The position numbers were made by a program, and so were the translations under genes. A DNA stretch of 64,000 nucleotides. Source: Rheinheimera sp. UJ63. Its GTDB lineage: Bacteria > Pseudomonadota > Gammaproteobacteria > Enterobacterales > Alteromonadaceae. Positions 13,925 through 47,815 of the stretch are shown in pieces (the first letter of the stretch is position 1; each line of letters opens with the position of its first letter). The stretch covers positions 248,001 to 312,000 of the forward strand of contig NZ_JAKGTQ010000003.1 in assembly GCF_021568285.1 (NCBI RefSeq). The letters run 5' to 3'. The notes beneath the pieces are model-generated. The model saw only the letters and a list, made by a program, of their open reading frames with translations, searched no databases and had not been told where the DNA came from.

Positions 13925-13944
13925 AATAAACTTGAAGGCGCTTA

Positions 13945-20727: not shown

Positions 20728-20771
20728 TATGCCGAGCCCTAAACCGCTCAGGCAAAACGGGAGAAGGCAGT

Positions 20772-20972
20772 ATGAAACCCATATTTCAAAGTGTGAATTG
20801 CCCTTTTTGTGGTTATCCCAGCGATATTTGCGTGGAAGCCTCAGCAGAGGATCAAGATTACATCGAGGATTGCAGCAATTGCTGCAATCCGATGCATATT
20901 CGAGTGCATACTGATGATCTGCAGCATCGTGTGCAGATCTTCGTCGATGCCGATGACGAACAGTATTACTGA
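20772..20972 (+). CDS. CPXCG motif-containing cysteine-rich protein
   Basis: This 66-residue small protein has CPFCG (about residues 10-14) and CSNCCNP (about 33-40), two Cys pairs suited to bind one zinc. The rest is acidic. It matches the family named for this motif, common in Alteromonadales; its role is unknown. The stop codon overlaps the end of the convergent riboflavin synthase gene by 7 bases. Confidence 0.8.
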   Translation: MKPIFQSVNCPFCGYPSDICVEASAEDQDYIEDCSNCCNPMHIRVHTDDLQHRVQIFVDADDEQYY

Positions 20973-30504: not shown

Positions 30505-31656
30505 TCACACCCCAAACTCTGCATTCAACGCCTGTTGATTCGTTTGCTGTATATTCCATTCCATTAATGCCCATACGCTCTGAAGTAAAATGTCGTCTTG
30601 TTGTGAAAGATATTGATAAAGTCTAAACAGCCAAAACCGCCACTCAGTCCGTTTAACATCTAGAGGAACATTCGCAGCATAATGCCGTAAGCGACTGGTA
30701 AACTCTTGAAAGCTGGTAGGTGCTAACAGGTCTGTAGTTAACCGCACTACTAGACTATCAGCGATAAAGGATTTTACACGGCTAGGCACTTGAAATGCGT
30801 CTATCCATGTATTTATCTTTTGTTCAATATTATAACTTGCGTTAGTAAAGCTAATCATGACATCACCTAGGGGTTGCTCCCAGTTGCCAACTGTCAGCTC
30901 ATGCAGCTGTTTTATCCCCATAGTTACCGACATGTAACTACTACAACTTTCTTGCAAAGGTGGTAAGGGATAGAAGGCTAAACGCCGCTGATTAGCTGCT
31001 CTGTATAGTAGATCAAACGAACCTTTGGCTTTTGAATTGCAAATGTGGCATGTGGGGATAAAGTTACCTGGATGAACGCCATAAATCGGATGTTTATCCT
31101 TGCACAAAAGATGGTCGTAATCAGCTCGCCATTGCTCGTTATCAGGACGCCCTATTCTATCTTGGGACAACTGACTTGTGCCGCAGACATAACACAGTTG
31201 GGTATTTCCGTTTGCTTGCCTAAATAACTGAAAATGAGCTTTGACTGCAGTGCCTGCCTGCCTTTCTATATTGACTAAGCTTGCTGTTCTAGTGAAAAGA
31301 TGTGTGGTTAGCTGCTTCAACACGTTAAATTGGTTATCTGGCAATCTAGGTGGTGAATTAAACGTATCGCTAAAAAAAGTATTGATTGTCTGGGCTGCGT
31401 TAATTTGATCATATAGCTGTTGCCTTTGAGGTACGTCCTGTGGAAGCTCATTCCAGAGCACCTGAAACTTCACCCGAGTAGGTTCATTTTCCCAACATTC
31501 ACTTCTAAGGATGTTTTGCCCATCCTGATATGTTGAAAATAATGCATCAGAAAACGCTGTTGCATTCACGCTTTGACACAGAAAATGCAGTAATTCGTCA
31601 TTCAATACTCTGAATACATCGCACTGTGGTGTATTGGGGTTCAAAGAAAATAACAT
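30505..31656 (-). CDS. HNH endonuclease-type protein coupled to an ABC ATPase
   Basis: A 383-residue protein. A helical N-terminal half of about 150 residues precedes an HNH/zinc domain: CYVCG (Cys 155, 158), DYDHLL (His 182), then NFIPTCHICNSKAKG (Asn 198, Cys 203, Cys 206). The remaining 170 residues are helical and not recognised. Its ATG overlaps the ATPase stop by one base, so the two are made together. ATPase plus HNH is the layout of PtuA-PtuB (Septu) and of the retron-associated PtuAB module. This protein is longer, and the ATPase belongs to a restriction-associated family, so I call it Septu-like only. Confidence 0.72.
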   Translation of the reverse strand: MLFSLNPNTPQCDVFRVLNDELLHFLCQSVNATAFSDALFSTYQDGQNILRSECWENEPTRVKFQVLWNELPQDVPQRQQLYDQINAAQTINTFFSDTFNSPPRLPDNQFNVLKQLTTHLFTRTASLVNIERQAGTAVKAHFQLFRQANGNTQLCYVCGTSQLSQDRIGRPDNEQWRADYDHLLCKDKHPIYGVHPGNFIPTCHICNSKAKGSFDLLYRAANQRRLAFYPLPPLQESCSSYMSVTMGIKQLHELTVGNWEQPLGDVMISFTNASYNIEQKINTWIDAFQVPSRVKSFIADSLVVRLTTDLLAPTSFQEFTSRLRHYAANVPLDVKRTEWRFWLFRLYQYLSQQDDILLQSVWALMEWNIQQTNQQALNAEFGV

Positions 31657-33311
31657 TAGCGCTGTAGCTTCCCTAGCAAATAAGCCTTTTCCATCGACTC
31701 GCCTAAATTGGTTTCAATCCATTCTCTGGCTTTCGTCAATTCTCTGCGGTCAGTCTCTTTATCAACAAGTTTGTCTGAGTTTAAGTACTGTTTCACCTCG
31801 GCAACTGCACTTTGCGAAATAGTCGATTTGAGGCCAAAATGCCGTTTGATTAAAATCTCAAATGTAGTGCCGTAGGTCTGTTCACCAATTGGCATCATTT
31901 CTATTCGATCATTTTGCCCCCGCTCAAACATAAAAACATTATTTTTACGCAACGACGAAATCATAAAAGGCGAATGGGTCGACAATAGCACTTGTGTATT
32001 TAGCTCAAACTCAGGTTTCAGCGCTTTTGATAAATGCTTATGAAAATAGGTGCGCCATGCAGGGTTTAGATGGGTTTCCGGTTCATCCAGCAAATACAAG
32101 GTATTGTCGCTGCTAAACAATCTTGCCATGCCCATAATCTCAATAAGCTGAGCTTCCCCATCTGACAGGTCATCATAATTAACTGTCGCAAATTTTCCAT
32201 CCGACAGCAAAAGCTCTTTAATGGTGATAGGCAATTTACTTTTCAGTGGCTTTTTAACGTTACCGAAATAGTTATCACGTCTTAAGCCTCTTACATCATC
32301 AGCACGCCACTTTTTAATCCCAAGCTGTTGTGCTTTAAACAAACGCTTAAAGAACAGAAACGGATTACCATAATTTGCCTCATACAACCTAGCACGAACA
32401 GAAGGATCGTTTAAATCTAAAGTGATTTCACCAGACATATTATCTAGCTCGAACATCTCGTATTGCAGTTCCGTTGATTGCTTACCAATGCCCAGATAAT
32501 TAGCCTCTCCAGCAACTCGTCTAAGCATTTTTATGTCACTCACCGTATCGGCTTCAACTTGGTCATTAATAAGGGCATATGCAAAGACGATTTTTGATGG
32601 GTATTTAAATTTGCATTCGGGAAATACATCATCAAGATCCTCCTTAGATAACATGCCTAGTGAACTAATCATCAACCTTGCGCTGTCGTAATCCAAGAAA
32701 ATTAACGAGCTTATTCCTGAAGGTGATTCTCGTATTTCGCCGTAACTGTCTTTCTCGAATAAATGAGGGTATTTTTCAACATACCGTTGATTTATCTCAT
32801 AATACTGTTTGTCATCGGTATTCTTGAATGACAACTCTTTTTGGCGCTTCAGCTTGATGCGTTGTACATCAAAATACTGCACCATATTTTTTAAGAAGCC
32901 ACCTTGCAAATTCGCATTTAACCCAGATGAGTACCCAACAATATGATCCGGAACAGGTATTTCATTGCCCCATGGGAACCAACCAACGTCATCCTGATAG
33001 GTATATGGCTCGGGCTCTTTCTCTGGTTTTATTACAATTTTAAATAGCGTCTGCCTTGCATCAGGGCTAAGCAGTTGTATCTGGTAAACAACCTCCACAC
33101 CAAAATTAAACCCTGTATTGGTTATAAAATCCTGTCTTTGCCAGCGCTCTACATAAGCAAATATTTCAGCTATCAGCTCTAGTAGCTGTGATTTCCCTGC
33201 GCCATTAAGGCCAATAAATGCCTGTATATTGCTGTCTATGCAGCTAAAATCAAACGCCTGATCTCTTAAGCCTTTGTATTGACCATTTAACTTTACCGAC
33301 ACGATTCGCAT
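31656..33311 (-). CDS. Restriction system-associated ABC/SMC-type ATPase
   Basis: A 551-residue ATPase of the RecF/SMC-like group. Walker A is GLNGAGKS (34-41), the ABC signature LSDGEAQ (382-388), Walker B LYLLDEPETHLNP (405-417) and the H-loop STHSPF (444-449). The long insert between Walker A and signature is the lid or coiled-coil region. No TOPRIM domain is seen, unlike OLD nucleases. It overlaps hsdS by one base upstream and the HNH gene by one base downstream. The sequence fits the family annotated as restriction-system-associated AAA ATPase. Proposed role: DNA- or complex-sensing motor that controls the HNH partner. Confidence 0.82.
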   Translation of the reverse strand: MRIVSVKLNGQYKGLRDQAFDFSCIDSNIQAFIGLNGAGKSQLLELIAEIFAYVERWQRQDFITNTGFNFGVEVVYQIQLLSPDARQTLFKIVIKPEKEPEPYTYQDDVGWFPWGNEIPVPDHIVGYSSGLNANLQGGFLKNMVQYFDVQRIKLKRQKELSFKNTDDKQYYEINQRYVEKYPHLFEKDSYGEIRESPSGISSLIFLDYDSARLMISSLGMLSKEDLDDVFPECKFKYPSKIVFAYALINDQVEADTVSDIKMLRRVAGEANYLGIGKQSTELQYEMFELDNMSGEITLDLNDPSVRARLYEANYGNPFLFFKRLFKAQQLGIKKWRADDVRGLRRDNYFGNVKKPLKSKLPITIKELLLSDGKFATVNYDDLSDGEAQLIEIMGMARLFSSDNTLYLLDEPETHLNPAWRTYFHKHLSKALKPEFELNTQVLLSTHSPFMISSLRKNNVFMFERGQNDRIEMMPIGEQTYGTTFEILIKRHFGLKSTISQSAVAEVKQYLNSDKLVDKETDRRELTKAREWIETNLGESMEKAYLLGKLQR

Positions 33312-34651
33312 CAGGCTTTCTTCCTTATTTTAACCTTCGCCCGCTCCGTCTTTATCCGCTCCAACAAAGCCTCAGCGCTATTCTCACCACTTAACAGCTC
33401 GGGGTGAGCCGCACGCCAATCGGCGGTGAGTTCGCCGCGAAAGGCTTTGGCGAGGATGGATTGGGTCAGGTTATTTACCCGGCTAAGCGCGGCCTGGGCG
33501 GCGTGTTCAATGCGGTCGGCAAAGGCGAAGAGTTCTTCTACCCGACAGACGATTTCGGTTTGAATATCTATAGATGGCAGGGATAACTCAATTGACATAA
33601 TATGCTTAGAACCAACGTTCCCTTGATTTACGCCACCCGTTTCACCAGCAAAAAATTGATCCCTAAACTTATCTGAGCGAACAAAGATATTTAAATATGC
33701 AGGCAAAACGCTTTTTTGATTAGGCATAAGCCTTCCAACGCGTTGATTAATTAAAAGGTTTTTCTGATCATTAACTAGACAACCAAAACCATAATCCTTT
33801 TTAAAACGAGTACCGGTCATACTTAAAAGTGTATCGCCAGTATTTGGAGTAAATTTTGCGAACTCTTCCGCAATAGAATTAGAGACAAATGCTGGAGAAT
33901 TTTCTAAAGCCAAATACCCATCTCTAATGTTGCCTAGCTTTATTACTTGGTATTGGCCAGTCGTTTCAAACCATTCACTTTTGAAAGCAAAGCCGTTCTG
34001 AAATTCAGCCACTTCAGCCAAAGTTGATTCTGTTGAACACCACTCCTCCGTCAACTTGCCACTTACCGCTGCGGCGAGCACGGATTGGCGGAAGCGTTTT
34101 AGGATCTCGGGGATGCGCTCGAGGCGGGCTTTGGTGTTGTCGACCTGTGCCAGCATGGTGACGAGTTTTTCGGCGATCACTTTTTGTTCGGCTAGTGGGG
34201 GGAGAACAAAAGGTGCTAACAACCCATCTTGTGTTCCAAGCCTGGGCATATTTACACCATAGCTAACCTCAACCACGTAATTTAAAAAAGTTTCGCCTTT
34301 TAACCAGTAAAATAAATACCGGTTGTCGATATGAGGCGCTGCATCCAGCGGAATAATTTCCGTTGAACAAACGCCATTCTGATCAGCAATAACAACCTTA
34401 TTCAGGTACGGCCGCAGCTTGCCGTACAATACTTCACCTTTTTTAAACTTATTTTTTGTACTCTTAAACGGTCGTGCGGCTGCATTTAACCTCTGAACAA
34501 TTCTGGAGCTCTCTTTCTCGACGTCTTCAAGCTCTAGTATCCAAGTATCGTTAGAGACATCTGATAGTTCGCACTTCTGTGTTTTGCCATACTCAACGAC
34601 ATCGCCAAGCTTGATGTATAACCAATCTGAAGGTAAATCGTCAAAGCACAT
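33311..34651 (-). CDS. hsdS: Type I restriction-modification specificity subunit
   Basis: This subunit determines the bipartite DNA target of the HsdM/HsdR complex. The 446-residue protein has two target-recognition domains (about 8-150 and 205-360). Each is followed by a conserved helix: LPPLAEQKVIAEKL with the spacer to residue 200, and LPSIDIQTEIVCRVEELFAFADRIE near the end. The second helix repeat ends SILAKAFRGELTADW. The start overlaps the hsdM stop (TAATG), and the stop overlaps the ATPase start (TGATG). The recognition sequence cannot be read from sequence. Confidence 0.92.
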   Translation of the reverse strand: MCFDDLPSDWLYIKLGDVVEYGKTQKCELSDVSNDTWILELEDVEKESSRIVQRLNAAARPFKSTKNKFKKGEVLYGKLRPYLNKVVIADQNGVCSTEIIPLDAAPHIDNRYLFYWLKGETFLNYVVEVSYGVNMPRLGTQDGLLAPFVLPPLAEQKVIAEKLVTMLAQVDNTKARLERIPEILKRFRQSVLAAAVSGKLTEEWCSTESTLAEVAEFQNGFAFKSEWFETTGQYQVIKLGNIRDGYLALENSPAFVSNSIAEEFAKFTPNTGDTLLSMTGTRFKKDYGFGCLVNDQKNLLINQRVGRLMPNQKSVLPAYLNIFVRSDKFRDQFFAGETGGVNQGNVGSKHIMSIELSLPSIDIQTEIVCRVEELFAFADRIEHAAQAALSRVNNLTQSILAKAFRGELTADWRAAHPELLSGENSAEALLERIKTERAKVKIRKKA

Positions 34652-36246
34652 TAGGCTGCACCTTCCAACGCCTTAAGCAATCCATCCAGCTCACTAAGCG
34701 CTGCCTCGAGCTCGTCTTTCGCCTCCCGGGCCAGTACATCAGGTTCTGGCAAATTGGCGGCATCGACGCTGTCTTTATCTTTTAGCCAGCTAATATCCAG
34801 CGAGTCGGCTTTATGCTCGCGGATCCACTCGCGGCTGAATTTGCGCCAGCGGCTGTGGGCTAAACGCTCGTCTACGCCGTCGTTTTCTTCCGTGGGGGCC
34901 ACTTCCACTTGCTCGGCATTAAAGCTGTACTCACCCTCTTCACGTGGGCTTAGGCCATTGGCATCTTCGCCATACACGGCTTCAAACGGTGTTAAGTGGC
35001 TATCAGCAAACGGCGTGCGTTTACCGAAGCTTGGCATATTGGTACGCAGGTCATACACCCAGACACTCTCAGTACAGTTTTCTTGCTGCAACTTGTCTTT
35101 GCTGCTGCCTTTGGTAAAAAACAGCACGTTGGTTTTAACGCCCTGGGCGTAAAAAATACCGGTAGGCAGGCGTAAAATAGTGTGCAGGTTGCACTTGTGC
35201 ATTAAATCGCGGCGTACGTCGGTGCCTACGCCGGCTTCAAATAGTACGTTATCGGGCAACACTACTGCAGCACGGCCGCCGGGCTTTAGGTTACGGTAAA
35301 TATGCTGCAAAAACGCCAGTTGTTTATTGCTGGTTTTATAGGTTAAATCGTCGCGGGTGTTACTGGCCTCACCGCCTTTGCTGGTGCCAAACGGTGGGTT
35401 GGCTAAAATAATATCGGCACGGGCTAAAGCTTTACCGGTATCGCCCAAGGCATTACCTAAATGCACCACGCCCTCGGCATCGCCCTCCATGCCGTGCAAT
35501 AAGCAATTCATTAGCGCTAAACGGCGGGTGCCGGGCACCAGTTCGATACCGACAAAGGCTTTATTGCGCTGGAAAGTTTGGTCAGCAGCCGTTAAATCAT
35601 ATAAGTCATCGGTATGTTTTTTAATGTAGGCATCGGCGGCAATTAAAAAACCTGCCGTACCGGCCGCCGGATCCTGCACAATTTCGCATGGTTTAGGTTT
35701 AATGCAGCGCACCATGGAGTTAATTAAGGCTCGTGGAGTAAAATATTGGCCGGCGCCCGATTTGGTTTCACCGGCGTTTTTCTCCAGCAAGCCTTCGTAT
35801 AAATCGCCCAGGCCGTCTTTGGCGGCGCTAAACCAGTCTATTTGGTCCAACGTTTTAATCATTTGCTCTAAATGGCGTGGCTCGCGCAGGCGGGTTTGTG
35901 CATCGGCGTAAATGGCGCTGATCAGCGGGTCTTCATGTACCTGCACTTCAATGGTTTTACCGACATTGTCTGGATCAGCAATCAGGCGTTTACCAGTAGA
36001 GAGTGCAAATAAAATCGCTTTGTAGTCGTTTAGCAGGTTTATGCCCGACTTGCCGTTAATATCAGTCCAGCGGCAGCCCTCTGGCAATGGGTGTTTTTTT
36101 AAGGTGCCGGCTTCGGTGTTTTCATGCACCATTTTAATAAACAGCAGTAGCACTAATTCGGTGACGTAATCGCTGTAATTAATGCCGTCGTCTCGCAGTA
36201 CGTCACACAGGTTCCAGAGTTTTTGTACGATGTCGTTATTGTTCAT
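34651..36246 (-). CDS. hsdM: Type I restriction-modification DNA methyltransferase subunit
   Basis: An N6-adenine methylase of 531 residues. An N-terminal helical HsdM_N domain (about 5-145) precedes the methylase domain with the SAM motif DPAAGTAGFL (192-201) and the catalytic NPPF (283-286). GAGQYFTPRALI before the SAM motif is typical of HsdM. ATG 36246, with AAGGA upstream, was chosen; the open frame runs 32 codons further without a signal. It is the first gene of a tight operon hsdM-hsdS-ATPase-HNH-mrr-unknown-NERD. hsdR lies 5.6 kb upstream on the same strand, separated by a glycosyltransferase cassette. Confidence 0.93.
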   Translation of the reverse strand: MNNNDIVQKLWNLCDVLRDDGINYSDYVTELVLLLFIKMVHENTEAGTLKKHPLPEGCRWTDINGKSGINLLNDYKAILFALSTGKRLIADPDNVGKTIEVQVHEDPLISAIYADAQTRLREPRHLEQMIKTLDQIDWFSAAKDGLGDLYEGLLEKNAGETKSGAGQYFTPRALINSMVRCIKPKPCEIVQDPAAGTAGFLIAADAYIKKHTDDLYDLTAADQTFQRNKAFVGIELVPGTRRLALMNCLLHGMEGDAEGVVHLGNALGDTGKALARADIILANPPFGTSKGGEASNTRDDLTYKTSNKQLAFLQHIYRNLKPGGRAAVVLPDNVLFEAGVGTDVRRDLMHKCNLHTILRLPTGIFYAQGVKTNVLFFTKGSSKDKLQQENCTESVWVYDLRTNMPSFGKRTPFADSHLTPFEAVYGEDANGLSPREEGEYSFNAEQVEVAPTEENDGVDERLAHSRWRKFSREWIREHKADSLDISWLKDKDSVDAANLPEPDVLAREAKDELEAALSELDGLLKALEGAA

Positions 36247-36519
36247 GTTAATCCTTGTTAGAAAATCATCCTGCTTGGGTAACGCTGGCAACCTTGTTTC
36301 GATAACACACACAAATGTGCTACAGAACTGTGATAAATTCAATAAAATAAAAGCTGTTTATCAGGTAATTAACCGCTTTAGGATGGCAGGGTTTTAATGC
36401 TGCCCTATGATATAAGCCGCAACCCATAGCAGCAACCACTGTGTAACCTTTGTGGTATGTTTTAGCTTAGGTAACCCAGCCAATTAATATAGTGCTTCAG
36501 CAAGCAATAAGGACGCTTA

Positions 36520-37254
36520 GTGTTAGCCCGTTTAAGTTATCGTTTTATCTATCGGTTTATTAAACCGTTACTGCCCTATTCTGCATTTAGCCAATACCTA
36601 AAATGGAAGCTGGCACTGATGCTAATTGGTACTGAGTTTCATCAGGATAACCTGCAAAATAACCGGGAAAAGTTAGCCCGGCATTTTGATGCGAATGCGC
36701 CACTGCAGCCTGAGCTGGCAGCTTTATTGCCAGCAAAAAGTATGCATTGTTTAAAGGTGCTGGACATTGGCGCAGGGCCAATGAGTAAAGTAGGTAAACG
36801 CCATAACGGCAGCAATATTGAGCTGGTTGCCATCGACCCAATAGCCGATAAATATCAGGCGTTGCTTAAACAGTTGGCCTTAACACCGCCCGTAGCTACT
36901 CTACCTGGCTTTGGTGAACGCTTACGGGAGCAATTTAGCGATAACAGCTTTGATCTTATTCATGCGCGTAACTGCATTGATCACTGTCGCGACCCGTTAT
37001 TGGTTATTCAGCAGGCCATTAGCGTGCTTAAACCGCAATGTTATTTTTACTTAAATCATTATCGCAATGAGGGCATTGCCGCAAACTACTATGGCCTGCA
37101 TCAATGGAACTTTGATGCAATAAACGGCAACTTTGTTATTACCGGCGCCTTTGGCAACACAACCAATGTAAACCAAGCGATAGCCTCGCAAGCAAAAGTG
37201 ACATCAATAGAAACCAGCGCTGAGCGCCTAGTAGTGGTAATACAAAAACGATGA
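36520..37254 (+). CDS. Class I SAM-dependent methyltransferase
   Basis: A 244-residue protein with a SAM-binding Rossmann fold: motif I VLDIGAGP (80-87), AIDPIADKY (104-112), then DLIHARNCIDHCRDP in the motif IV region and VLKPQCYFYLNHYRN. This is the small-molecule or sugar methyltransferase type, not a DNA methylase (no NPPY/DPPY). GTG 36520 is the start, with AAGGA six bases before it. It overlaps the next gene by ATGA. It lies in the glycosyltransferase cassette between hsdM and hsdR, so a glycan or glycosylated product is a plausible substrate (inference). Confidence 0.8.
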   Translation: MLARLSYRFIYRFIKPLLPYSAFSQYLKWKLALMLIGTEFHQDNLQNNREKLARHFDANAPLQPELAALLPAKSMHCLKVLDIGAGPMSKVGKRHNGSNIELVAIDPIADKYQALLKQLALTPPVATLPGFGERLREQFSDNSFDLIHARNCIDHCRDPLLVIQQAISVLKPQCYFYLNHYRNEGIAANYYGLHQWNFDAINGNFVITGAFGNTTNVNQAIASQAKVTSIETSAERLVVVIQKR

Positions 37255-38030
37255 GCTGGCATATTGTAGGTAACGGACCAAACACTGGTCATGCAATTGA
37301 AAACAACAACCCGCTCGCTAATCAGCAGCATATTGTTTTTAACCATGGCTACCCACAGTGGCTTAATAGCTGCCGTATTAGCAACCAGCGTTTAGCGGGC
37401 GGTAATAACGCTTTAAGTGTTAGCGGCACACTACCGTTCACGGGTTTTGCCCAGGCACTAAACCTGCAGCACCAACAGTTACAGGTAGCACTAAATGCTG
37501 TGCCATCCAGTGGTTTGTGCTGCCTAATGGTATTTGCCCTGGCAGGCATACCGGCAACGGTAAGCGGTATGACACTGCTGCCCAGCCTGGCGCGCACTGG
37601 CGGCTTGCAAGTGCGCCAGCCAATGGCTAGCTATTTTCATAATTGGTTGGCCGAGCGCAGGTTATTAATGCCATACATAGCTACATTAGATTGGCCGCAG
37701 TTTTATTTAACGCCGTTACCGGCGGCTAATGGCGCGGCTACTAAGCACACTGCTGCTAACCCTTACGACCAACTTAAACAGCTCACACAGCTTGATAAAC
37801 AGGCCGGTATGGCGGTTATTCGCGTGCTTGCCGACTTAGCGCCAGCCAACTGGTTAAACCACACCAATTCCGATAGTGTTAACGCTATGGCGCCCCTGTT
37901 TTACTTATCACGCACTGAAACACAGAGCCCAAACTGGTGGCTATTTGATGATGTGGCATCGCAGCTTATGGCTCGGGTGCAGTATCAACTGGCATGGGCG
38001 CAGCAACAGTATTTGCTAGCGCAGGTTTAG
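37251..38030 (+). CDS. Unknown protein, possible nucleotide-sugar-binding fold
   Basis: A 259-residue protein starts MSWHIVGNGPNTGHA. The VGNGPN motif at the very N-terminus recalls Rossmann-like bacterial sialyltransferase-type and DUF115-type proteins, which begin in a similar way; the rest is not recognised. It is translationally coupled to the methyltransferase (ATGA). Its last 65 bases overlap the end of the convergent multidomain glycosyltransferase gene, which is long for two real genes but both frames are otherwise convincing. A glycan-related role is inferred from neighbours. Confidence 0.6.
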   Translation: MSWHIVGNGPNTGHAIENNNPLANQQHIVFNHGYPQWLNSCRISNQRLAGGNNALSVSGTLPFTGFAQALNLQHQQLQVALNAVPSSGLCCLMVFALAGIPATVSGMTLLPSLARTGGLQVRQPMASYFHNWLAERRLLMPYIATLDWPQFYLTPLPAANGAATKHTAANPYDQLKQLTQLDKQAGMAVIRVLADLAPANWLNHTNSDSVNAMAPLFYLSRTETQSPNWWLFDDVASQLMARVQYQLAWAQQQYLLAQV

Positions 38031-41000
38031 CTAGCAACTCAGCAATAAGCTGATGTTCGCGCTGCTTTTCTGCAAAGCCGTAATCAAGCCGCTGATGCCA
38101 GTAAGCATAACCGGTGTCTAAATACATGGGCTTGGTAGCTAACTCTACCATGGGTAGCATGGTGACATAGTCGGTTACCCTGTCGAACCAGGTATCACCG
38201 TTTTTGAAGTATGCTTTGGGTACCCGCTCGAACAAGTATTTTTTAAATACCCGCAAGTGTGCCCATACATTTGCCGCAGCCTTAGCGCGTGGCGAAGTGT
38301 AATTGGGTATATACAACTTTAGCGGTTTATTAGGCCGGAACATCGGCAGTTGTATCAGATCGGCGCCTTGCTCTGCTGCCTTAATTAACTGGCTAACAAC
38401 GGTGTTTTGCATAAGGCAATCGTCCTGATCAAGCACGGCAATCAGCGTATCTGGGTTAGTGCATAACTGCTCAATGGCCTGAATAAAGTTTGGCATACGC
38501 CCCTGGTGCTGGTTATGCCGCACTAAGGTGGTTTTGGGCATTAAGTCGGCTAACAGCAGCGGATACTGCCAGTTGTGCTCAGCACCACTGCCATCGTCAA
38601 TTAATATAATGCCAAAGCACTGCTCTGTTTGCTGGCGCAGTGAAGTTAAGCAGCGTTGCAGTAATACCGTTTCAGTGAGGCGGCCTTTTAGTAAAAACAC
38701 CACTGGTTCGGCCCGGCTTGGGTATTGCCAGCGGGCGTCTGGTTGTAAATCAAATTGCTCAGCTTGGTCAGGCGGTATGGTTCCCTGTGCAATTAAATCG
38801 CGGATCACGCCAGAACATAAAGCGGCTTTATGCTCGTTTCTTGGGTGTACATAAAAACTGTCGGGGTTGCCACCACGCACAGAGCGAGCGCCGCTTAGTT
38901 TTTGCTGTGCCTGCAACGCCCGATGCCAGGTTAAACAAAAACGGCTATCTTGCACTGGGTTCGCTATGGGTAAACAGGCTTTAAGACGGGCAAGATCTAG
39001 CAAGCCAAAACGTACTTCAGGCGGAAACTGTCCAGGCTCGCCGTGGTAAGGTAAAAAGCCTGCTGTGCCTTTGGCGGTATCTTTGGATATGTTAAAGCCA
39101 ACGCAGTGCACATCAGCGGGCGCTATTGCATCTAGCATGTCGGCCAAATAATCATGCTGCCAGCACTTTCGGCCAATCAGCACATCGCTGTCGCACTGCA
39201 GCACATAGCGAGTAGTTACCTGGCTAAATGCCCATATTTGCGGCAACAACGGTGCGTTATTTACCGTATGGCTGGCCGTTACCTGGTTATTACCAAACCA
39301 CTGCTGATAATACTGCTGGGCGCAGGCAACTGCCTGCTCTGTTTCTGCCCCGGGTGACAGCCATACATCATCAATTAGCGAAGCGTCTTTTAATGCCTGG
39401 GCCTGGGCTATTACAACTGGTAAGTCCGCTTTAGCGTACTGGCGTAAAAACGGCCCGCTAAAACTGTCGATTAACAGCACCACCTTTGCAAATCGCTGTG
39501 GAAAGCTAAGCTGAGTAACAATGTGCGCAATTTGCTGCTGTAGCCCTGCTGCATCCTGCGCACAAGCTTTAATCAGCAAGGTAACGTTAGTACATACTGG
39601 CACAGGGTTGTCGTTGTGTTTAACGGCAATATAATGCGGGTGCAAAGCGCTGATAAGTTGTTGGTAAAACGCCGCGAAACTCGGCAGTTGCATTAAAGCG
39701 GCATCAGCTTTACGGAGGCTTTTACGCCGCACCAACTCTTCATCGTCATTGCCTAATACACCAATAGAATATAACCGCGCCGCCATATCTAAAAAGTAGG
39801 CGGTGGTTAGTGGCTGAATGTCTTTACCAATGTCGATATATAGCAGGGTGTTATCGGCATCAAGCAGTAAGTTATCGCGCTTTATATTCAGGGCGCAAAC
39901 CCCAGCTAAGTATAACCCGCGTAAAAACTGCGTTATCTGGGCAACGGTAATTAACTGGCCCACAGCACGCGTATTGCGAAGCGGCGTGGTGTAGCACCAT
40001 CCGCTTTGCTGCTTATGCCAGGTTACCGCTGGTAAACCTGAAATGGGCTTAGTCATAAGCTGCTGTAGTTGTATTACATCTTTATCCTCTATCGCCCAGG
40101 GATAAAACTGCTTGGTAATGGTGCTTTTGTCACACCAAACAATACCTTCCATACCCGAGCCCAGGATGTTGTAACCTAGCCTGCTGGCGTGCAACCAGGA
40201 CTGCGCTGCCACGGCAAGACGAACGCGTTGCTCTTGCCAGAACTGGTTTTGTTTATTGTGCTGTGTGTCGGCGCCATCAAGCGAATAGATACAGTAAACC
40301 GGGTTAGCCACGCATACCACCTGCTTTGGATATAACAGCAATAGCCGCAGCACTAACCAGTGATCTTCAGCACTTCTGATATTGGGGTAACGTAAACCAA
40401 CCTGCGTTTTAAGCAGCAAATTACAAGAAGGTAACTCATGCTGTTGCTGACCATGGCAAAACCGCTGCACCATAGCCAGCAACTGCTCGGCATTTAACAG
40501 CTCGTTTGCATCAGCGTAGTTGGTACCAGCAATGATGCTATTAGCCAAACGCAAACGGTTGCTACCAATGGCGGCGATGGCTTTTTGCTGCACTGCTGCT
40601 TGCCATAAGGCATGTACGCTATTGTCGCTGGCTAACTCATCGTCGGCATCAAGCCGCGCAACCCACTGCACTGTAGGCTGTTTGTCAGCCCAATCCAGTA
40701 ACATATTACGCGCTCTGGCGGGTGAACCACATTCTGCCGCAAGCAGTGTAATAGCAGGGTGCTTGGCTAAGGCGCAAGCCTTGTTGAATTCATCATTGCT
40801 TGAGCCATCGTCCAGCACAACTATACGTGCCCTTTTTTGCCGCACCATGTTTTGTATTACTGCGCTTGCAAGGGCTCGGGCTAAAAACGTAGGCTGATTC
40901 TTATGTGTAATGGCAATAACCAATTCAGCTTGTTGATAACTGGCATCACCTTGCTTAATGACCTGGCTTTGCCGGGTACACAATACCTCTGACACCACAG

Positions 41001-41034
41001 CAGGCGCAGTAAGAAAATAACTTTTTTCGGGCAT
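37966..41034 (-). CDS. Multidomain glycosyltransferase with an embedded kinase-like domain
   Basis: A 1022-residue cytosolic protein with four parts. Residues about 38-255 are a GT2-type GT-A domain (VIAITHKNQP, VVLDDGSS, LDADDE 128-133). Residues about 288-465 look like a protein-kinase fold: GSGMEGIVW loop (292), TKQF lysine, ALNIKRDN (381-388) where kinases have HRDxxxxN, and YIDIG (399-403) in place of DFG. Residues about 480-740 are a second GT-like domain with a CDSD motif (614-617). Residues about 775-1000 are a third GT2-type domain with LIDDGS and LDQDD (868-872). It starts directly after the GT2 gene stop. I know of no characterised protein with this order. Confidence 0.78.
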   Translation of the reverse strand: MPEKSYFLTAPAVVSEVLCTRQSQVIKQGDASYQQAELVIAITHKNQPTFLARALASAVIQNMVRQKRARIVVLDDGSSNDEFNKACALAKHPAITLLAAECGSPARARNMLLDWADKQPTVQWVARLDADDELASDNSVHALWQAAVQQKAIAAIGSNRLRLANSIIAGTNYADANELLNAEQLLAMVQRFCHGQQQHELPSCNLLLKTQVGLRYPNIRSAEDHWLVLRLLLLYPKQVVCVANPVYCIYSLDGADTQHNKQNQFWQEQRVRLAVAAQSWLHASRLGYNILGSGMEGIVWCDKSTITKQFYPWAIEDKDVIQLQQLMTKPISGLPAVTWHKQQSGWCYTTPLRNTRAVGQLITVAQITQFLRGLYLAGVCALNIKRDNLLLDADNTLLYIDIGKDIQPLTTAYFLDMAARLYSIGVLGNDDEELVRRKSLRKADAALMQLPSFAAFYQQLISALHPHYIAVKHNDNPVPVCTNVTLLIKACAQDAAGLQQQIAHIVTQLSFPQRFAKVVLLIDSFSGPFLRQYAKADLPVVIAQAQALKDASLIDDVWLSPGAETEQAVACAQQYYQQWFGNNQVTASHTVNNAPLLPQIWAFSQVTTRYVLQCDSDVLIGRKCWQHDYLADMLDAIAPADVHCVGFNISKDTAKGTAGFLPYHGEPGQFPPEVRFGLLDLARLKACLPIANPVQDSRFCLTWHRALQAQQKLSGARSVRGGNPDSFYVHPRNEHKAALCSGVIRDLIAQGTIPPDQAEQFDLQPDARWQYPSRAEPVVFLLKGRLTETVLLQRCLTSLRQQTEQCFGIILIDDGSGAEHNWQYPLLLADLMPKTTLVRHNQHQGRMPNFIQAIEQLCTNPDTLIAVLDQDDCLMQNTVVSQLIKAAEQGADLIQLPMFRPNKPLKLYIPNYTSPRAKAAANVWAHLRVFKKYLFERVPKAYFKNGDTWFDRVTDYVTMLPMVELATKPMYLDTGYAYWHQRLDYGFAEKQREHQLIAELLAKPALANTVAAPMPVDTAPEP

Positions 41035-41859
41035 TTAAGATAACCGCTGTAACTCGGTAAGAATGTCCTGCTGATTAATATTGAACAGCTTTTCCATGCG
41101 TTGAAAGTATTGCTGCATCTGCAGGGATGACATCCTATGTCCATGTGATTGAAGAAACTGTGCACATCCTTTGCGTTTTTGCACAGAGCCAGGTGCAGAC
41201 AACGCCGTATCGCATAAACCGCAAGCCCAGTTTACTGTGGCTTGCCTGGTATAAGTTACGCGAAAACGGTTTTCAGTCAGCAGTCTAATGGCGAGATCTT
41301 TGTCATTACTGCTAATCATGCCATTAGTAAAGCCGCCAACCGCTTGCAAGGCCTTAACACGCACAAACGTATTTGAGCCCTGCCAGCCAGGATTACCAAC
41401 CAGAAAATCGTTAACCGTAATATTGGTAGGTATGTTGACGGCAATATTATTATTGTTTTTGGTGACATTAATGCCAGATAACACTATATCAGCCTGACCA
41501 TCATCACTACTTTTATAACATAGTAATAAATGATCGGGCTGCCAGCTGTCATCATCATCTAAAATGGCGATGTAGCTGTGTTTAAATCGCTGAGCAATTG
41601 CATTTATGCCGGTGTTCCAACTTCCCGCCGCGCCGGGCAAGAAACTATTTTTTAAAGTGACTAACGGTAGATCACCAAGTAGTTCTTGAAGCAAAATGTG
41701 TTCAGCAGCGTTAAGAGCACGCTGATCTGACACGATAACTACTGCAACAGGACGCAATTTTTGGGCAACAATGCTTGGAATAGCTACAGACTGTAAATTG
41801 TTAAAACGCGGCGTTGTAGCAATAAGCACGACAATTGGCGTCACTAACTGGCCTGCCAT
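41035..41859 (-). CDS. Glycosyltransferase family 2 protein
   Basis: A 274-residue GT-A fold enzyme transferring a sugar from a nucleotide donor. It begins with the strand VVLIATTPRFNNL; VIVSDQ and the metal-binding AILDDDDSW (about 95-103) follow. GNPGWQGSNTFVR and SSNDKDLAIRLL are the acceptor-side segments. The start lies inside the hsdR 3' end (16-base overlap) and the stop abuts the next ATG (TAAATG), so hsdR, this gene and the 1022-residue protein are one translational unit. Acceptor unknown. Confidence 0.8.
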   Translation of the reverse strand: MAGQLVTPIVVLIATTPRFNNLQSVAIPSIVAQKLRPVAVVIVSDQRALNAAEHILLQELLGDLPLVTLKNSFLPGAAGSWNTGINAIAQRFKHSYIAILDDDDSWQPDHLLLCYKSSDDGQADIVLSGINVTKNNNNIAVNIPTNITVNDFLVGNPGWQGSNTFVRVKALQAVGGFTNGMISSNDKDLAIRLLTENRFRVTYTRQATVNWACGLCDTALSAPGSVQKRKGCAQFLQSHGHRMSSLQMQQYFQRMEKLFNINQQDILTELQRLS

Positions 41860-44800
41860 AATGAGTTACTTAATTCTGCCAGTACGCTATTTAACTGATC
41901 ATCCAACATCAGGTTTAAGCGCTTGGCACCACCGTCGTTAGCAAAGCAGTTATTCACAAATTCTCGGTCAACCACCACCTCATGCACCAGTTGTTTGGCT
42001 AAACGGTCTAACCATTTACGCTGGTTGGGGTTAAAGTTGTGTTGCTGATACATACGCTGCATAGCCTGTGCTACACGCTGCTCAAACGGTTGCAATGCTT
42101 CACCTAAGGCCGCACGACGGATATGGCCAATAATGCTGGCAGCAATGTCTTGATTGGTTTGATTGCGCACCGCGCTTTGCAGTTTAACCTCAGAATAACC
42201 GGCGTTATCCAGCAGTAGCTTCACTTCTTTTAACTGCTCGCGGGTTAAGTCTCGCGGTTTATTCACTACCACCGCTAAAGCCGCAGATTGATTAAGTTGG
42301 CTTTTAATAAACTGATTAAAGCTTTCTAGGTAATCCTCTGGTTTTTTATAGTTGCCGTAGTTTTGCTCGCGCACTACTAGCTCATCGGCATGCTCAGAAA
42401 TAACCGGTTTGTGTGATGAGCCAAGTAGTGCGTCAACCTCATTGAGCTGATTTAACAAACCGCTGTGTTGCTGCATAAAGTGTGCAGCTTGGCTGGGGCC
42501 CATTTCGCGCAAATGGGTATGTAAACTTTTAGGCTCTACGCCCCATAAGCTGTGTAACTCACCCAACTTTTGTTTTAAGGCGGGTTTAGTGTCGGCTAGG
42601 CTCTCTGCTTTGCGCAGCACGCGCATCACCTTTTGGCTGAGCTGACTTAACACCACATCGGCATGGCTTTCACCTTGCTGCTCACCAGGGCTTTGCAGTG
42701 CTTGCTCAAGCTTGTTAGGTGTAGTGAGCTCATCCACCAATTGCGCTAAAGTAATGTTCGGGTTTTTCACCAACGGCTTCATGGTACTGACATCTTGCAG
42801 TGCCGCGTAAATATCTACCGGATCATAAATACGGAATACCGTTTTACCAATATCATCGCAACGCCGCGTAGCACGGCCAATCATCTGCTCATACAAAATG
42901 CGCGATTTAATTCGGCGCATAAACACCAGGTGGCAAATTTTCGGCACATCAATGCCGGTAGTCAGTAAATCGACGGTAATGGCAATATTGGGGTAACGCT
43001 CATTTTTGTACTGGCGAATAAGCTGCTCAACTTTGTCGCTTTGCCCCGTAATTTTGGCTACCGCGGCTTGGTTATATTCGCCGTTGTACCTGGCTTTAAA
43101 GGCATCATCCAGTAATCGCTTTACCATATCGGCATGCAGATCGGTGGCGCAAAAGATCATGGTTTTCTCTTCGCCAAAGGGGTCTAGCTCTTCTGCTAAT
43201 TGTTCGCAAATAACGCGGTTAAAGTTCTCGTTAATCACCCGGCGATTAAAAGACTCGACCTCAAAGTTAAGCTCGTCGTCTAAATCAGCGGTTTCAATTT
43301 CACCCGTTTGCGTATTGATGGCACTGACTTGGCTGCCCTTTTCAAACTTAATCCCATTTTGACTGAGCAGTGTTTCATAGCGGATCGGCGGTTCATGATC
43401 GATAAGCCAATCATCAGCCACGGCTTCGCGGTAGGAATAGGTGTAAACCGGCTTACCAAATATCTCGCTGGTATGCTTGGCAGGGGTAGCAGTAAGCGCC
43501 ACTTTAAAGGCATCAAAGTAGTCCAGCACACGCCGGTAACTGGATAAATACTGGCTGGCATCACGAGTGGCTAGCTCGCCTTCGGTCATGTCTTGATCCA
43601 GCGTATAACCGCGGTGTGCTTCATCAATAATAATGCAGTCGAACTGATCTAACGGTGGCGGGTTATCACTCATAAAGATGCGTTTTACCATTGCCTGCAC
43701 AGTGGCTACCTGAATACGGGTTTCAGCCTCTGCCGCCATATCGCCTAGCTCAGCAATATTATAGATTTTCGCCAGCGTGTGGTTTTGCTCCAGTGGCGCT
43801 TCATTAAACGCATCTAACGCTTGCTGGCCCAGTGCAGTGCGGTCGACCAAGAATAAAATCCGTTTAAAGCGCTCCGCTTTTAAAAAGCGATACATTAAAC
43901 CGATGATGGTGCGTGTTTTACCGGTACCAGTTGCCATAGCGAGTAAGGCGGTACGACGGTTTTCAGCCAACGCCTGCTCTACTGCAATTATGGCTTTTTG
44001 TTGATAAGGCCGTACTTTTAAATAGCCAAAGGGTTCGTGCTGGAGTTTTTGCTCGGCAGCTTCTTTACTGCGTTTCAATAAGTCCAATAACCCCTCTGGG
44101 GTATGAAAGCTTTGTAACGCCCGTTTTAAATTACTTGGCTCTCGCACATCACGAAACCAGGTGCCGGATTGCTCTGCTAGCTGCGGAACATAGGGCCGAC
44201 CATTACAAGAATAAACAAAAGGCACTTTGTAATGGCCTTCAGCATGATCTGGCCAAGCTACAGTTTGCCCGGTCAACTGCCAAGCGCCCGTTAAAGGCGC
44301 AGCAACATTAAAACCCCGGCTGTAGCGCTCGGCTTGGTCAATTTTACCGGCCACATTTACGTTTTCTTTTTTTGCTTCCACTACGGCTATTGGGGTTAAA
44401 CCGCAAAACAGCGCATAATCGGCTCGGCCGCCCTCGCTGTTTAACTTGGTGGGCCACTCGCTAATCGCTTTATTTTGGCCTTTTTCTGGCCGGCAGCCTT
44501 TTTGATAGGTTAGCTCTTGCGTGTCGACTTCCCAACCAGCGTCTTTTAACTGTTGGTCAATCAGAATACGGGTGAGCTCTTCGCTTAATGTAATGTACTG
44601 GCTAGCGGCTTGAGTTTTTTGTTGTGCGGTACTTTGTTGTTCGGTCACCACATCGGCGGTTTGCGCGGTGAGCTGTTGTTGCAACAGCTTTATCTTTGCT
44701 TCGTAATCCTGTTGCTGCTGTTTAAGTGCCGCTTCATGCAGGGCCGCTTGTTGGGCGTGCTGTTTGGCCTCTTCGTCCATAGCCATTGCTAGCGCTTCAT

Positions 44801-45368
44801 ATTCGGCCTTTTCTTGCGTAATCAGTTCATGCAACTGCTGGCTAGAGTCAAGTTGCACATTGGCCGCACTTAAGTCTGATTTAAGCTTTTCAATATCAAG
44901 TTGTAGTTGCCGTAACTGACTGCTGGGATCCGCCGGCGGCACAAAGGCACCAGCGGTAAATTGCGTGCCGGCTTTACCAAAGGCACGATGAAACCAAATG
45001 GCTAATTCACGTGCCAGCCTTAACCCGGCTAACGCTTCACGATGTTGGGTTTTGAACTGATGGGTGGCTTTATTGCCTTCAATACGCAAGATATGAAATA
45101 ACTCACGTACACGGGGATCAAAGCCTAATTCGCGATTCAGCTTGTAGAGTAGATCCGCCTGGCTGGTTTGTTCGTCAAATACCACACCCGAGCGCGCAGC
45201 CACCTCTTGTGCAATGGCTTCAGCAAACTGGCGTAACTTGATTAAGGTGGTATTGGGATCGGCATTAAAAGCACGTTCAGCACTTTGCGCCAGCTGCAAA
45301 AACAGCGGGTCGTATTCGACGAGAAAAGCAAAATTACTTTGTGGTATCCGGTCAGCAGGCTGCGTCAT
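41844..45368 (-). CDS. hsdR: Type I restriction endonuclease subunit R
   Basis: This is the 1174-residue motor and nuclease subunit. The N-terminal DUF4145-like domain (about 25-135) is followed by a Gln/Ala-rich coiled coil (150-255), the HSDR_N nuclease with GGRADYALF and VVEAKKEN (Glu 331, Lys 333), and the SF2 helicase with MATGTGKT (478-485), IIIDEAHRG and the helicase C domain (MIGRATRRCDD). The C-terminus binds the M/S complex, EcoEI type. ATG 45368 with GAGGGA was chosen. It is not adjacent to hsdM; a four-gene glycosyltransferase/methyltransferase cassette separates them. Confidence 0.92.
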   Translation of the reverse strand: MTQPADRIPQSNFAFLVEYDPLFLQLAQSAERAFNADPNTTLIKLRQFAEAIAQEVAARSGVVFDEQTSQADLLYKLNRELGFDPRVRELFHILRIEGNKATHQFKTQHREALAGLRLARELAIWFHRAFGKAGTQFTAGAFVPPADPSSQLRQLQLDIEKLKSDLSAANVQLDSSQQLHELITQEKAEYEALAMAMDEEAKQHAQQAALHEAALKQQQQDYEAKIKLLQQQLTAQTADVVTEQQSTAQQKTQAASQYITLSEELTRILIDQQLKDAGWEVDTQELTYQKGCRPEKGQNKAISEWPTKLNSEGGRADYALFCGLTPIAVVEAKKENVNVAGKIDQAERYSRGFNVAAPLTGAWQLTGQTVAWPDHAEGHYKVPFVYSCNGRPYVPQLAEQSGTWFRDVREPSNLKRALQSFHTPEGLLDLLKRSKEAAEQKLQHEPFGYLKVRPYQQKAIIAVEQALAENRRTALLAMATGTGKTRTIIGLMYRFLKAERFKRILFLVDRTALGQQALDAFNEAPLEQNHTLAKIYNIAELGDMAAEAETRIQVATVQAMVKRIFMSDNPPPLDQFDCIIIDEAHRGYTLDQDMTEGELATRDASQYLSSYRRVLDYFDAFKVALTATPAKHTSEIFGKPVYTYSYREAVADDWLIDHEPPIRYETLLSQNGIKFEKGSQVSAINTQTGEIETADLDDELNFEVESFNRRVINENFNRVICEQLAEELDPFGEEKTMIFCATDLHADMVKRLLDDAFKARYNGEYNQAAVAKITGQSDKVEQLIRQYKNERYPNIAITVDLLTTGIDVPKICHLVFMRRIKSRILYEQMIGRATRRCDDIGKTVFRIYDPVDIYAALQDVSTMKPLVKNPNITLAQLVDELTTPNKLEQALQSPGEQQGESHADVVLSQLSQKVMRVLRKAESLADTKPALKQKLGELHSLWGVEPKSLHTHLREMGPSQAAHFMQQHSGLLNQLNEVDALLGSSHKPVISEHADELVVREQNYGNYKKPEDYLESFNQFIKSQLNQSAALAVVVNKPRDLTREQLKEVKLLLDNAGYSEVKLQSAVRNQTNQDIAASIIGHIRRAALGEALQPFEQRVAQAMQRMYQQHNFNPNQRKWLDRLAKQLVHEVVVDREFVNNCFANDGGAKRLNLMLDDQLNSVLAELSNSLWQAS

Positions 45369-45453
45369 AATCCCTCGTCGCAAGCTAATGATTTATCTTC
45401 AGATATAAAGATAAGTTTGTACCATTAGCGTGGACGGTTGGCAATACAACATT

Positions 45454-46385: not shown

Positions 46386-47657
46386 TTACAAGCAATCCAA
46401 ATACTCTTTGGCTTTGTTCTGCACCAAATGGCCATAATGACGGATTGTGGTTTGGATATTGGTATGCGCCATCAGTTTAGACACGGTAAGTAAGTCAGCC
46501 CCTTTTGATATCAGTTGGCTAGCGAAGTTATGCCGCAGGGTATACAAGTTAAGGCTATCTGGTAAGCCAGCTAAAGTACGTATTTTTCCCCATGGCTTTT
46601 GCATTGCCTTTTTATCCATACGTTTACCGGTAACCGCTGATGGAAACACTAGGCCTCTTGCAGGTTGTTTGTGTTGTTTATGCCACGCTACCAACACATC
46701 TGTTGCTTTAGCACTTAGCGGAAAGTTTCTTGTGTCACTCTGGTGATGTGCAGTTTTTTCTATAACTTTGCTAATGCTGCCAGACTGCAAATCAATATGC
46801 TCCCAACGCAAACCAAAAAGATCACCAGGGCGAAAACCGGTGTAATACATTAGCAAAAGCCATGGTTTTACATGGTCGACATATACCAAATTGCTCAGAT
46901 CAGCCAAATGCGCTTTACCGTGTGCGCGGCTATTTACCCGGGCTTTACGCCTCTGCTCCTGATAAAGATCCAGTGCGCTAAAAAAGGCCATAGTTTCAGC
47001 ATCGGATAAATACCGTCTTGAATCTGTGTCGTTTTCATCCGTATCAAAGCTGACAGGTGGTTTTTCTAAACTGACATGCTTTAACGGGTTGTCAGTTAGC
47101 ACGCCTTTTTTAACGGCATAGTTGAGCATGGTTTTAAGTGCGCCATAAACGCGCTGTATAGTATCGTGCGCTAAACCTTCTGCCTCTTTACTCAGCTGCC
47201 AGCTCTCAACCTGGTTACGATTTAACGACTGCATAGGTACGTTAGACCAGCGTTCAAAATGCCTTTCTATCATTTGCACAGTTTGACTGCCCGACTTCTT
47301 TCGGGCTTGATAAGCGCGGTAATGGTGTTCAAGAAAATAATCCAGAGTTTGTTGCTGCAGCAGAACCGCTTGTTCTTTGTTAGCCTTCTTCTCTTGCTGC
47401 GGATACTGCCCTAACGCGACAGCACCCAGCATCGCAGTTGCCTGATCCCGTGCTTGCTCAGGTGTCAGAGCACCTAAATGACCAATCGTTATGACTTGTT
47501 GTTTACCTGCTGTATTACGGTACGATAGCCGAAACGATACTCGCCTCTTACCAATGCGCATATGAAAACCAGCTAGCTTAGTGTCATACACATCACCTAG
47601 TTCTGAGAGCTCTAATTCAGCTTTTATTTTAGTAGCGTTAAGATGGATCTTTTTCAA
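46386..47657 (-). CDS. int: Tyrosine recombinase, integrase of the genomic island
   Basis: This 423-residue P4-type integrase catalyses site-specific recombination at the tRNA-Val 3' end. The N-terminal arm-binding domain (about 1-90) starts KKIHLNATKIKA. A core-binding SAM-like domain (about 100-190) and the catalytic domain follow, with Arg in YYTGFRPGDL, His-x-x-Arg represented by YTLRHNFASQL, and His/Tyr in MAHTNIQTTIRHYGH. I chose TTG 47657, preceded by GGAAGG, over a TTG eleven codons upstream. It sits about 160 bases from attR and is read into the island. Confidence 0.88.
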   Translation of the reverse strand: MKKIHLNATKIKAELELSELGDVYDTKLAGFHMRIGKRRVSFRLSYRNTAGKQQVITIGHLGALTPEQARDQATAMLGAVALGQYPQQEKKANKEQAVLLQQQTLDYFLEHHYRAYQARKKSGSQTVQMIERHFERWSNVPMQSLNRNQVESWQLSKEAEGLAHDTIQRVYGALKTMLNYAVKKGVLTDNPLKHVSLEKPPVSFDTDENDTDSRRYLSDAETMAFFSALDLYQEQRRKARVNSRAHGKAHLADLSNLVYVDHVKPWLLLMYYTGFRPGDLFGLRWEHIDLQSGSISKVIEKTAHHQSDTRNFPLSAKATDVLVAWHKQHKQPARGLVFPSAVTGKRMDKKAMQKPWGKIRTLAGLPDSLNLYTLRHNFASQLISKGADLLTVSKLMAHTNIQTTIRHYGHLVQNKAKEYLDCL

Positions 47658-47815
47658 ACCACTACCTTCCCGGCAGTTTCTAGGTAACAATAAGGTAGCA
47701 GATTAGCGAAATAACTAGCAATATACAGCCCCATAGAGCAACAAAATAATTAATCAAGATTATGTTTTAATTGAACTTATATATGTATAGCTGTTTGTGG
47801 AGATTTGTCAAGAAC

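Follow-up and report, generated by a model that had tools for sequence, protein, structure and literature searches.

A glycosyltransferase cassette between hsdR and hsdM in Rheinheimera as a candidate phage-protection system of a new kind

Results

We analyzed a 64,000-nt stretch of the genome of Rheinheimera sp. UJ63 (NZ_JAKGTQ010000003.1, positions 248,001-312,000), hereafter the window, in whose positions all coordinates are given. Open reading frames (ORFs) and Pfam matches place a four-gene cassette (36520-41859) inside a complete type I restriction-modification (RM) locus, where it separates hsdR from hsdM; the order is hsdR, cassette, hsdM, hsdS. The cassette thus lies between hsd subunit genes, as prrC and TgvAB do. 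It comprises a glycosyltransferase (GT) gene, GT1; a gene for a large multidomain glycosyltransferase (large GT); a convergent gene for a conserved 259-aa protein; and a variable fourth gene, which here encodes a class I S-adenosylmethionine (SAM)–dependent methyltransferase (Table 1). All four ORFs are where an earlier note on this DNA had put them, and its reading of the junctions holds as well: GT1 starts 16 bp inside hsdR, and the ATG of large GT comes immediately after the GT1 stop. The large GT and 259-aa genes overlap tail to tail by 65 bp in the window (37966-38030). By eye, the true start of hsdM is probably the ATG at 36246.

The set of GT1, large GT, and convergent 259-aa gene recurs in Vibrio, Photobacterium, Salinivibrio, and Shewanella. 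We find 14 loci including the window: one Salinivibrio replicon, 11 genome contigs, and one further Vibrio locus from a search of that genus. The Salinivibrio replicon is the sole full-length match among 72,556 plasmid records. At a large-GT match of E 1e-60 or better, the gene is present in 1 of 395 genomes of the window's own family and 1 of 394 of its order (the window genome is in both samples), in 3 of 129 genomes of the genus Shewanella, and in 5 of 227 of the genus Vibrio. GT1 is found at all 13 loci where its place can be read; the remaining locus, L014, is a 4-kb contig that starts inside large GT, with the GT1 place and the flanks unreadable. The 259-aa gene is present at 14 of 14 loci, whole in 13 (including the added Vibrio locus, L036) and partial in L011, where the C-terminal part alone is found (52 residues, 81% to the L012 protein) and similarity ends before the contig does. 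Its tail-to-tail overlap with large GT is kept in 12 of 12 measured loci (12-86 bp), despite a changing fourth gene. The fourth gene is of methyltransferase type in the window and Shewanella insulae. Of the 12 other loci, 8 have a radical-SAM gene instead, L010 and L016 have neither type, and L011 and L014 are unreadable at this place. Two loci, L008 (14685-15380) and L017 (14684-15334), have a second, different methyltransferase gene directly after the radical-SAM gene, the L017 copy being 83% identical to that of L008.

Phage records contained no large-GT match, and viral-contig scans returned none with large GT or the methyltransferase pair; a phage-borne cassette was therefore rejected. 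The radical-SAM scan of viral contigs gave two loci at 23% identity. Three matches from the window's genus were also rejected as relatives of the set, being short GT-domain matches of 20-25 bits. On a plasmid of Pseudoalteromonas donghaensis (L006, 11983-18505), just after tra genes, a gene for a 1116-aa glycosyltransferase is followed by ribA-like, asparagine-synthase-like, and arylamine N-acetyltransferase genes.

The slot between hsdR and hsdM was surveyed in 30 loci, defined by hsdR relatives of at least 66% identity. They come from the window's genus (4 of 31 genomes, counting its own), from Shewanella (12 of the 15 matching genomes among 129), and from the order (17 of 394 genomes: the window's own, three whose coordinates coincide with those of Shewanella genomes in the previous group, and 13 additional ones, which contribute 14 loci). 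Fic alone occupies the slot in 16 loci. It is empty in eight (two of which, L095 and L096, are from one genome) and holds the cassette in three, an ORF of 382-387 aa in two, and AbiD in one. At more distant hsdR loci (L069-L071; 41-43%), the slot is empty in 3 of 3. Fic was recognized by BLAST to the L012 SoFic or to the L032 and L033 proteins, and Pfam confirmed four (L012, L032, L033, and L068). At least two types of Fic protein are found in the slot, one having a SoFic-like C-terminal domain and one lacking it; the window's genus has both. The AbiD/Abi_2 gene (L090, 3868-4863) belongs to a family linked to abortive infection. The 382-387-aa ORF lies on the opposite strand (L100, 3611-4774; L101, 7598-8746), with no Pfam match in either copy and no PADLOC match for the L100 copy.

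Besides the window, L011 and L012 have the cassette behind hsdR. In L012 it is followed by a retained Fic gene before hsdM and, by eye, stands between the hsdR stop codon and the pre-Fic region; the L011 slot is readable only through large GT and part of the 259-aa gene. Relative to the Fic-bearing loci of the same genus (L032-L034), DNA similarity to the window stops at ~41868 and restarts at ~36255, so that the borders are no more than ~25 bp from the stop codon of hsdR and ~10 bp from the start of hsdM. The cassette therefore stands almost exactly at the Fic position of its same-genus relatives, and it may either have displaced a Fic gene or have filled an empty slot. Chance insertion beside hsdR, unique to this genome, was the alternative raised by the earlier note; it is rejected by the recurrence of the cassette in the slot (L011 and L012) and by the slot survey.

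The slot contents bear on a second explanation, in which the cassette is, like PrrC, an intracellular effector coupled to RM. A block of restriction would prompt it to glycosylate (and methylate) a cytosolic target or small molecule, stopping phage growth. Consistent with this, the cassette occupies the Fic/AbiD position and GT1 overlaps hsdR. Sofic is reported to work by abortive infection (excerpts of PMC12249575), and PrrC, in its type IC locus, is described as activated on enzyme inhibition (excerpts of PMC12707154). However, several cooperating sugar and tailoring enzymes fit glycan assembly better than a toxin, Fic is retained beside the cassette in L012, and hsdR is directly upstream of GT1 in 3 of the 13 readable loci (window, L011, and L012) but not in the other 10. 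These points make an effector of this kind unlikely. The same count shows that the set does occur near hsdR elsewhere, as the earlier note had proposed to look for, but not that it is locked to hsdR, as it had supposed.

Phylogeny places the hsdR-linked cassettes apart. In the large-GT tree, the three as one clade are rejected (approximately unbiased test, p-AU 3.1e-5): L013, a locus with no adjoining hsdR, clusters with L011 and L012, and the window groups with Vibrionaceae (97/94). A tree that joins the window to the full set of three Shewanella rows is only weakly rejected (p-AU 0.024), and the long branches of the window, L010, L013, and L014 call for caution. In the hsdR tree, a quick tree with Shimodaira-Hasegawa-like approximate likelihood-ratio support (SH-aLRT) only, the cassette-bearing hsdR genes as one clade are rejected (p-AU 3.8e-27), and each stands beside a Fic-only relative. 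The hsdR label needs two changes on the large-GT tree and three on the hsdR tree. Between L011 and L012, synonymous divergence (dS) is 1.49 for hsdR and 0.57 for large GT, as would fit a cassette that moved once the hsdR genes had already diverged. Four cassettes linked to Mks genes (L007, L015, L016, and L035) are likewise rejected as one clade on the large-GT tree (p-AU 5e-4). Both trees reject a single ancestral hsdR-cassette unit without losses. The simplest reading is that the cassette likely entered the same slot repeatedly; gains with later losses, or whole-block exchange by recombination, could also have produced this history. The earlier note took genes between hsd subunits to be defense partners. 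This stands insofar as the slot is meaningful (Fic, once AbiD, and the cassette on separate hsdR branches), but not as a tie to hsdR.

Both glycosyltransferases belong to the GT2 family, with 33.4 bits for GT1 and 87.8 bits for large GT against Pfam Glycos_transf_2 (curated cut-off 23.3); the two Pfam matches of GT1 are both above their curated cut-offs (alignment A6, 12 GT1 rows). The earlier note's assignment of two glycosyltransferase genes is thus upheld, but the second is a multidomain protein that contains a kinase fold as well as GT2 domains and whose gene overlaps the 259-aa gene. Relatives of large GT are 48-56% identical over the full length. The domain order is N-terminal GT2, kinase-like, putative third GT, and C-terminal GT2. 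For the kinase fold (residues 278-467; model mean predicted local distance difference test score, pLDDT, 72), Foldseek gives E 3.5e-6 at probability 1.00, and VIA-align gives Z 10.7 with a root-mean-square deviation of 3.8 over 177 aligned residues, all 50 listed rows being kinases. At the catalytic Asp position of what we take to be the HRD motif, placed by eye, all 13 large-GT rows have Asn383, so that the Asp of active kinases is replaced. K308, N383, and N388 are invariant in the large-GT alignment, and D401 is invariant in 13 rows. The domain may have been repurposed as a scaffold, regulator, or transferase. The middle region has no Pfam match, and its conserved DxD-like motif, CDSDVL, suggests a putative third GT domain.

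The 259-aa protein, listed as unknown by the earlier note, has a structure model with pLDDT 87. Its eight best VIA-align rows are two sialyltransferases (CstII in six entries and ST6GALNAC2 in two), at Z 5.2-6.9; these rows were drawn from Foldseek candidates and are all below the guide value of Z 8. The best Foldseek match, at a nonsignificant E of 0.21, is to a protein other than these two. By sequence, the protein matched nothing in Pfam, NCBIfam, PHROGs, PADLOC, or the sequence profiles, and the PDB sequences gave one chance-level match. We regard it as weakly sialyltransferase-like on the strength of the model, that is, as a lead. The window methyltransferase is 60% identical to its Shewanella insulae homolog. 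Ratios of nonsynonymous to synonymous substitution (dN/dS) are 0.05-0.28 in eight close pairs of GT1, large GT, 259-aa, and radical-SAM genes, and these genes are therefore under purifying selection; the sole methyltransferase pair is saturated and gives no estimate. Kyte-Doolittle values are 1.97 for the window 259-aa protein and 1.68 for GT1, above the usual transmembrane guide of 1.6, but those of the L007 homologs (1.21 and 1.24) are below it. A transmembrane segment is therefore neither claimed nor excluded.

The earlier note had also suggested DNA or nucleotides as what is glycosylated as part of immunity. Only the position beside a DNA-modifying enzyme speaks for this, and nothing that we found points to DNA as the target. 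No obvious base-modifying partner was seen among the cassette genes or scanned neighbors, although no search was aimed at partner genes for DNA glycosylation. The glycosyltransferases are in GT2; their NCBIfam matches are weak, all far under the cut-offs, and mostly to surface-glycan enzymes, and PHROGs gives a weak generic GT match only. We consider DNA glycosylation highly improbable.

Table 1. Features of the cassette and its surroundings in the window, with the match or observation behind each.
Feature	Position	Strand	Evidence
Tyrosine-integrase-like ORF (presumed), adjoining hsdR	46386-47690	-	ORF
hsdR	41844-45383	-	Pfam ResIII 5.4e-35, EcoEI_R_C 1.4e-34
Stretch at the Fic position of same-genus relatives	36256-41867	.	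DNA similarity to L032-L034
GT1, GT2-family glycosyltransferase, 274 aa	41035-41859	-	Pfam Glyco_trans_2_3 7.5e-9, Glycos_transf_2 5.2e-8
Large GT, multidomain glycosyltransferase, 1022 aa	37966-41034	-	Pfam Glycos_transf_2 9.9e-25, two stretches
Large GT, N-terminal GT2 domain, residues ~35-250	40285-40932	-	Profile A5 positions 43-254 vs solved GalT1 (5hea), E 1.5e-6
Large GT, protein-kinase-like domain, residues 278-467	39634-40203	-	Foldseek, VIA-align
Large GT, middle region with CDSDVL motif, residues 484-780	38695-39585	-	Conserved DxD-like motif
Large GT, C-terminal GT2 domain, residues 791-923	38266-38664	-	Best Pfam Glycos_transf_2 stretch
Conserved 259-aa protein, sialyltransferase-like (GT42/GT29-like) candidate	37251-38030	+	Structure model
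Class I SAM-dependent methyltransferase, variable fourth gene, GTG start	36520-37254	+	Pfam Methyltransf_23 2.1e-8
hsdM	34651-36342	-	Pfam N6_Mtase 1.9e-75
hsdS	33311-34651	-	Pfam Methylase_S 1.5e-24; PADLOC Specificity_I
PtuA-like AAA ATPase (Septu-like partner), downstream of hsdS	31656-33311	-	PADLOC PtuA 4.1e-48
PtuB/PDC-M62B-like protein	30505-31656	-	PADLOC PDC-M62B 6.2e-11
Mrr type IV restriction enzyme	29545-30462	-	Pfam Mrr_cat 8e-39; PADLOC mREase_IV 4.7e-116

Recognized defense genes adjoin 9 of the 13 loci with flanks (window, L011, L012, L007, L015, L016, L035, L017, and L009), a count that has no control set of other island glycosyltransferases and for which PADLOC was run on chosen neighbors (none of L010 or L013, one of L005). 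This agrees with the co-occurrence with defense islands that the earlier note had put forward as a check. L007 has Mks/Wadjet-like genes and a WYL regulator (scanned: MksE, JetD_C, and WYL). The same genes are assigned in L015, L016, and L035 by 81-96% identity to the L007 proteins, and in all four loci the WYL regulator lies between cluster and cassette; behind the Mks genes lie a type I RM locus in L016 and REase_I-like and PDC-S41 genes in L035. L017 is flanked by HsdM, HsdS, and a GajB-like helicase. L009 has a NERD/UvrD-like protein and a DruE-like protein, the latter scanned over its first 500 aa, and L008 has only a weaker PbeA-like helicase match. In 4 of 12 genomes, the type I methylase family PF02384 has a match no more than 20 kb from the cassette, the expectation being 0.19 (P 4e-5); leaving out the window gives 3 of 11 (P 6e-4). 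This test was picked after the adjacency was seen. It covered 13 genomes or records, with the Salinivibrio replicon (no match) omitted from the sum and the L014 genome outside the search. The L011 genome was kept as a miss though its cassette contig is only 8.7 kb, and L017 is outside the count although PADLOC finds a type I methylase nearby.

A sugar-epimerase gene lies divergently upstream in six loci (L007, L009, L015, L035, L008 in part, and L016 split); in L009, a HipA-like gene (6604-7935) adjoins it. This epimerase aside, we saw no polysaccharide cluster (flippase, polymerase, ligase, or several sugar genes) among the subset of neighbors that were annotated or scanned, and no exporter or polymerase gene within the set. 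The earlier note had reckoned that a cassette found mostly in polysaccharide clusters, and beside hsdR only here, would indicate chance insertion; the scanned neighborhoods show neither pattern.

By annotation and Pfam scans, L005, L010, and L013 have no recognized defense gene nearby. They are surrounded by housekeeping genes, in L005 also by two transposase genes, and the single L005 protein run against PADLOC had no match. Together with the transposase genes near several cassettes and with the rarity of the cassette in the genome samples, these three loci favor generic island cargo: a surface-glycan or metabolic cassette whose host benefit is unrelated to phages, found beside hsdR because islands and the post-hsdR gap are recombination hot spots. 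In contrast, the named slot contents are of defense type (Fic and AbiD, besides the 382-387-aa ORF and the empty slots), and type I methylase genes are near the cassette above expectation. Plain island cargo is a serious rival, though a rather doubtful one. In L005 (Salinivibrio, 20028-21044) and L010 (Photobacterium galatheae, 13903-14973), the cassette lies beside ylqF-like genes, perhaps a common insertion site.

Elsewhere in the window, beyond Mrr, are a 288-aa protein with no Pfam or PADLOC match (28608-29474) and a NERD-domain protein (27595-28605); both have same-genus relatives in the L032 defense locus (66% and 79% identity, respectively). On the other side of the locus, the ORF adjoining hsdR, which we presume to be tyrosine-integrase-like, is 89-90% identical to 87-aa pieces beside hsdR in L033 and L034.

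Discussion

Here, we describe a recurrent glycosyltransferase cassette that, in the window, separates hsdR from hsdM. We tentatively favor the reading that it is a mobile module for oligosaccharide assembly, which anti-phage islands carry as an accessory and which most likely alters a surface receptor. Support for this reading comes from the gene content, the recurrence, the exact slot borders, the separate tree positions, the company of defense islands, purifying selection, and the sugar-epimerase gene upstream in six loci. hsdR, GT1, and large GT would then share one transcript. The GT domains of large GT, together with GT1 and the sialyltransferase-like protein, would build a short sugar chain, which the methyltransferase (the radical-SAM enzyme in relatives) would cap or alter. 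The acceptor would most likely be a surface precursor, such as the core of lipopolysaccharide (LPS) or similar, at the cytoplasmic membrane face; a membrane-bound acceptor is favored mainly because no exporter or polymerase gene is seen in the set. The altered surface would block phage attachment, and the restriction enzyme would handle DNA that still enters. The first 45 residues of the tailoring enzymes have a net charge of +2 to +11, compared with -2 to +2 in the other tested cassette proteins. These positive N termini, along with the absence of an exporter or polymerase from the set, tip the balance slightly toward the surface-receptor reading and away from an intracellular effector.

Several observations weigh against it. 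The hydrophobic moments of the tailoring enzymes are not distinctive beside those of the other cassette proteins, and membrane association is thus weakly supported. The other named slot occupants, Fic and AbiD, are intracellular effectors, which suits a surface role less. Islands collect unrelated cargo, and three loci have no recognized defense neighbor. None of the four cassette proteins is matched by a PADLOC model (2023 release, E up to 0.01). The proposal draws on gene content and context.

Thus, we regard the cassette as a candidate phage-protection system of a type not yet described. It is possible, if still somewhat doubtful, that it exemplifies an anti-phage module of a new class. Such a module would assemble glycans, be interchangeable with Fic or AbiD in the slot, be coexpressed with the restriction subunit, and provide layered defense by combining an altered receptor or glycosylated target with DNA restriction. 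Genes embedded in defense operons have earlier proved to be defense systems, as with prrC and TgvAB. If the cassette does protect against phages, a single operon would couple DNA restriction to a change of surface glycan. The slot is now mapped in 30 relatives. Abortive-infection types account for its named occupants there, and a group of sugar enzymes now joins them. Large GT, with its kinase-fold insert, forms a rare and specific family that can be used to find more such islands.

In the open-licence part of the literature, the terms used retrieved no paper describing a glycan cassette beside hsdR. Payne and colleagues, cited in PMC11411939, have reportedly worked on genes embedded in defense clusters. 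Excerpts of PMC12707154 describe prrC, embedded in the type IC RM locus EcoprrI, as a non-RM gene in an hsd locus that adds a second layer of defense. The cassette, too, is extra coding content inside an hsd locus, but PrrC is a single tRNA anticodon nuclease gene, whereas the cassette is a multi-gene glycan set in which no trigger of its own is recognized. TgvAB consists of two genes in the type I RM operon of VPI-2 in V. cholerae and is also found outside such operons (PMC11411939, in excerpt); the cassette is likewise embedded in a type I operon and present elsewhere. The same excerpts report demonstrated anti-phage activity for TgvAB, a modification-dependent restriction system of GmrSD type (PMC11411939), whereas the cassette has no recognized nuclease. 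SoFic, an AMPylator, fills this hsdR-hsdM slot more often than any other gene in close relatives. It is a single AMPylating enzyme, in contrast to the window, which has a multi-gene cassette and no Fic at the slot. Glycosyltransferase clusters for LPS core and O-antigen contain GT2 enzymes, a sugar epimerase, a tailoring methyltransferase, and a kinase-fold domain. The cassette shares all of these, the epimerase in six loci. Unlike those clusters, it has few genes, with no flippase, polymerase, or ligase seen, and it often stands beside RM, Wadjet-like, and Druantia-like genes.

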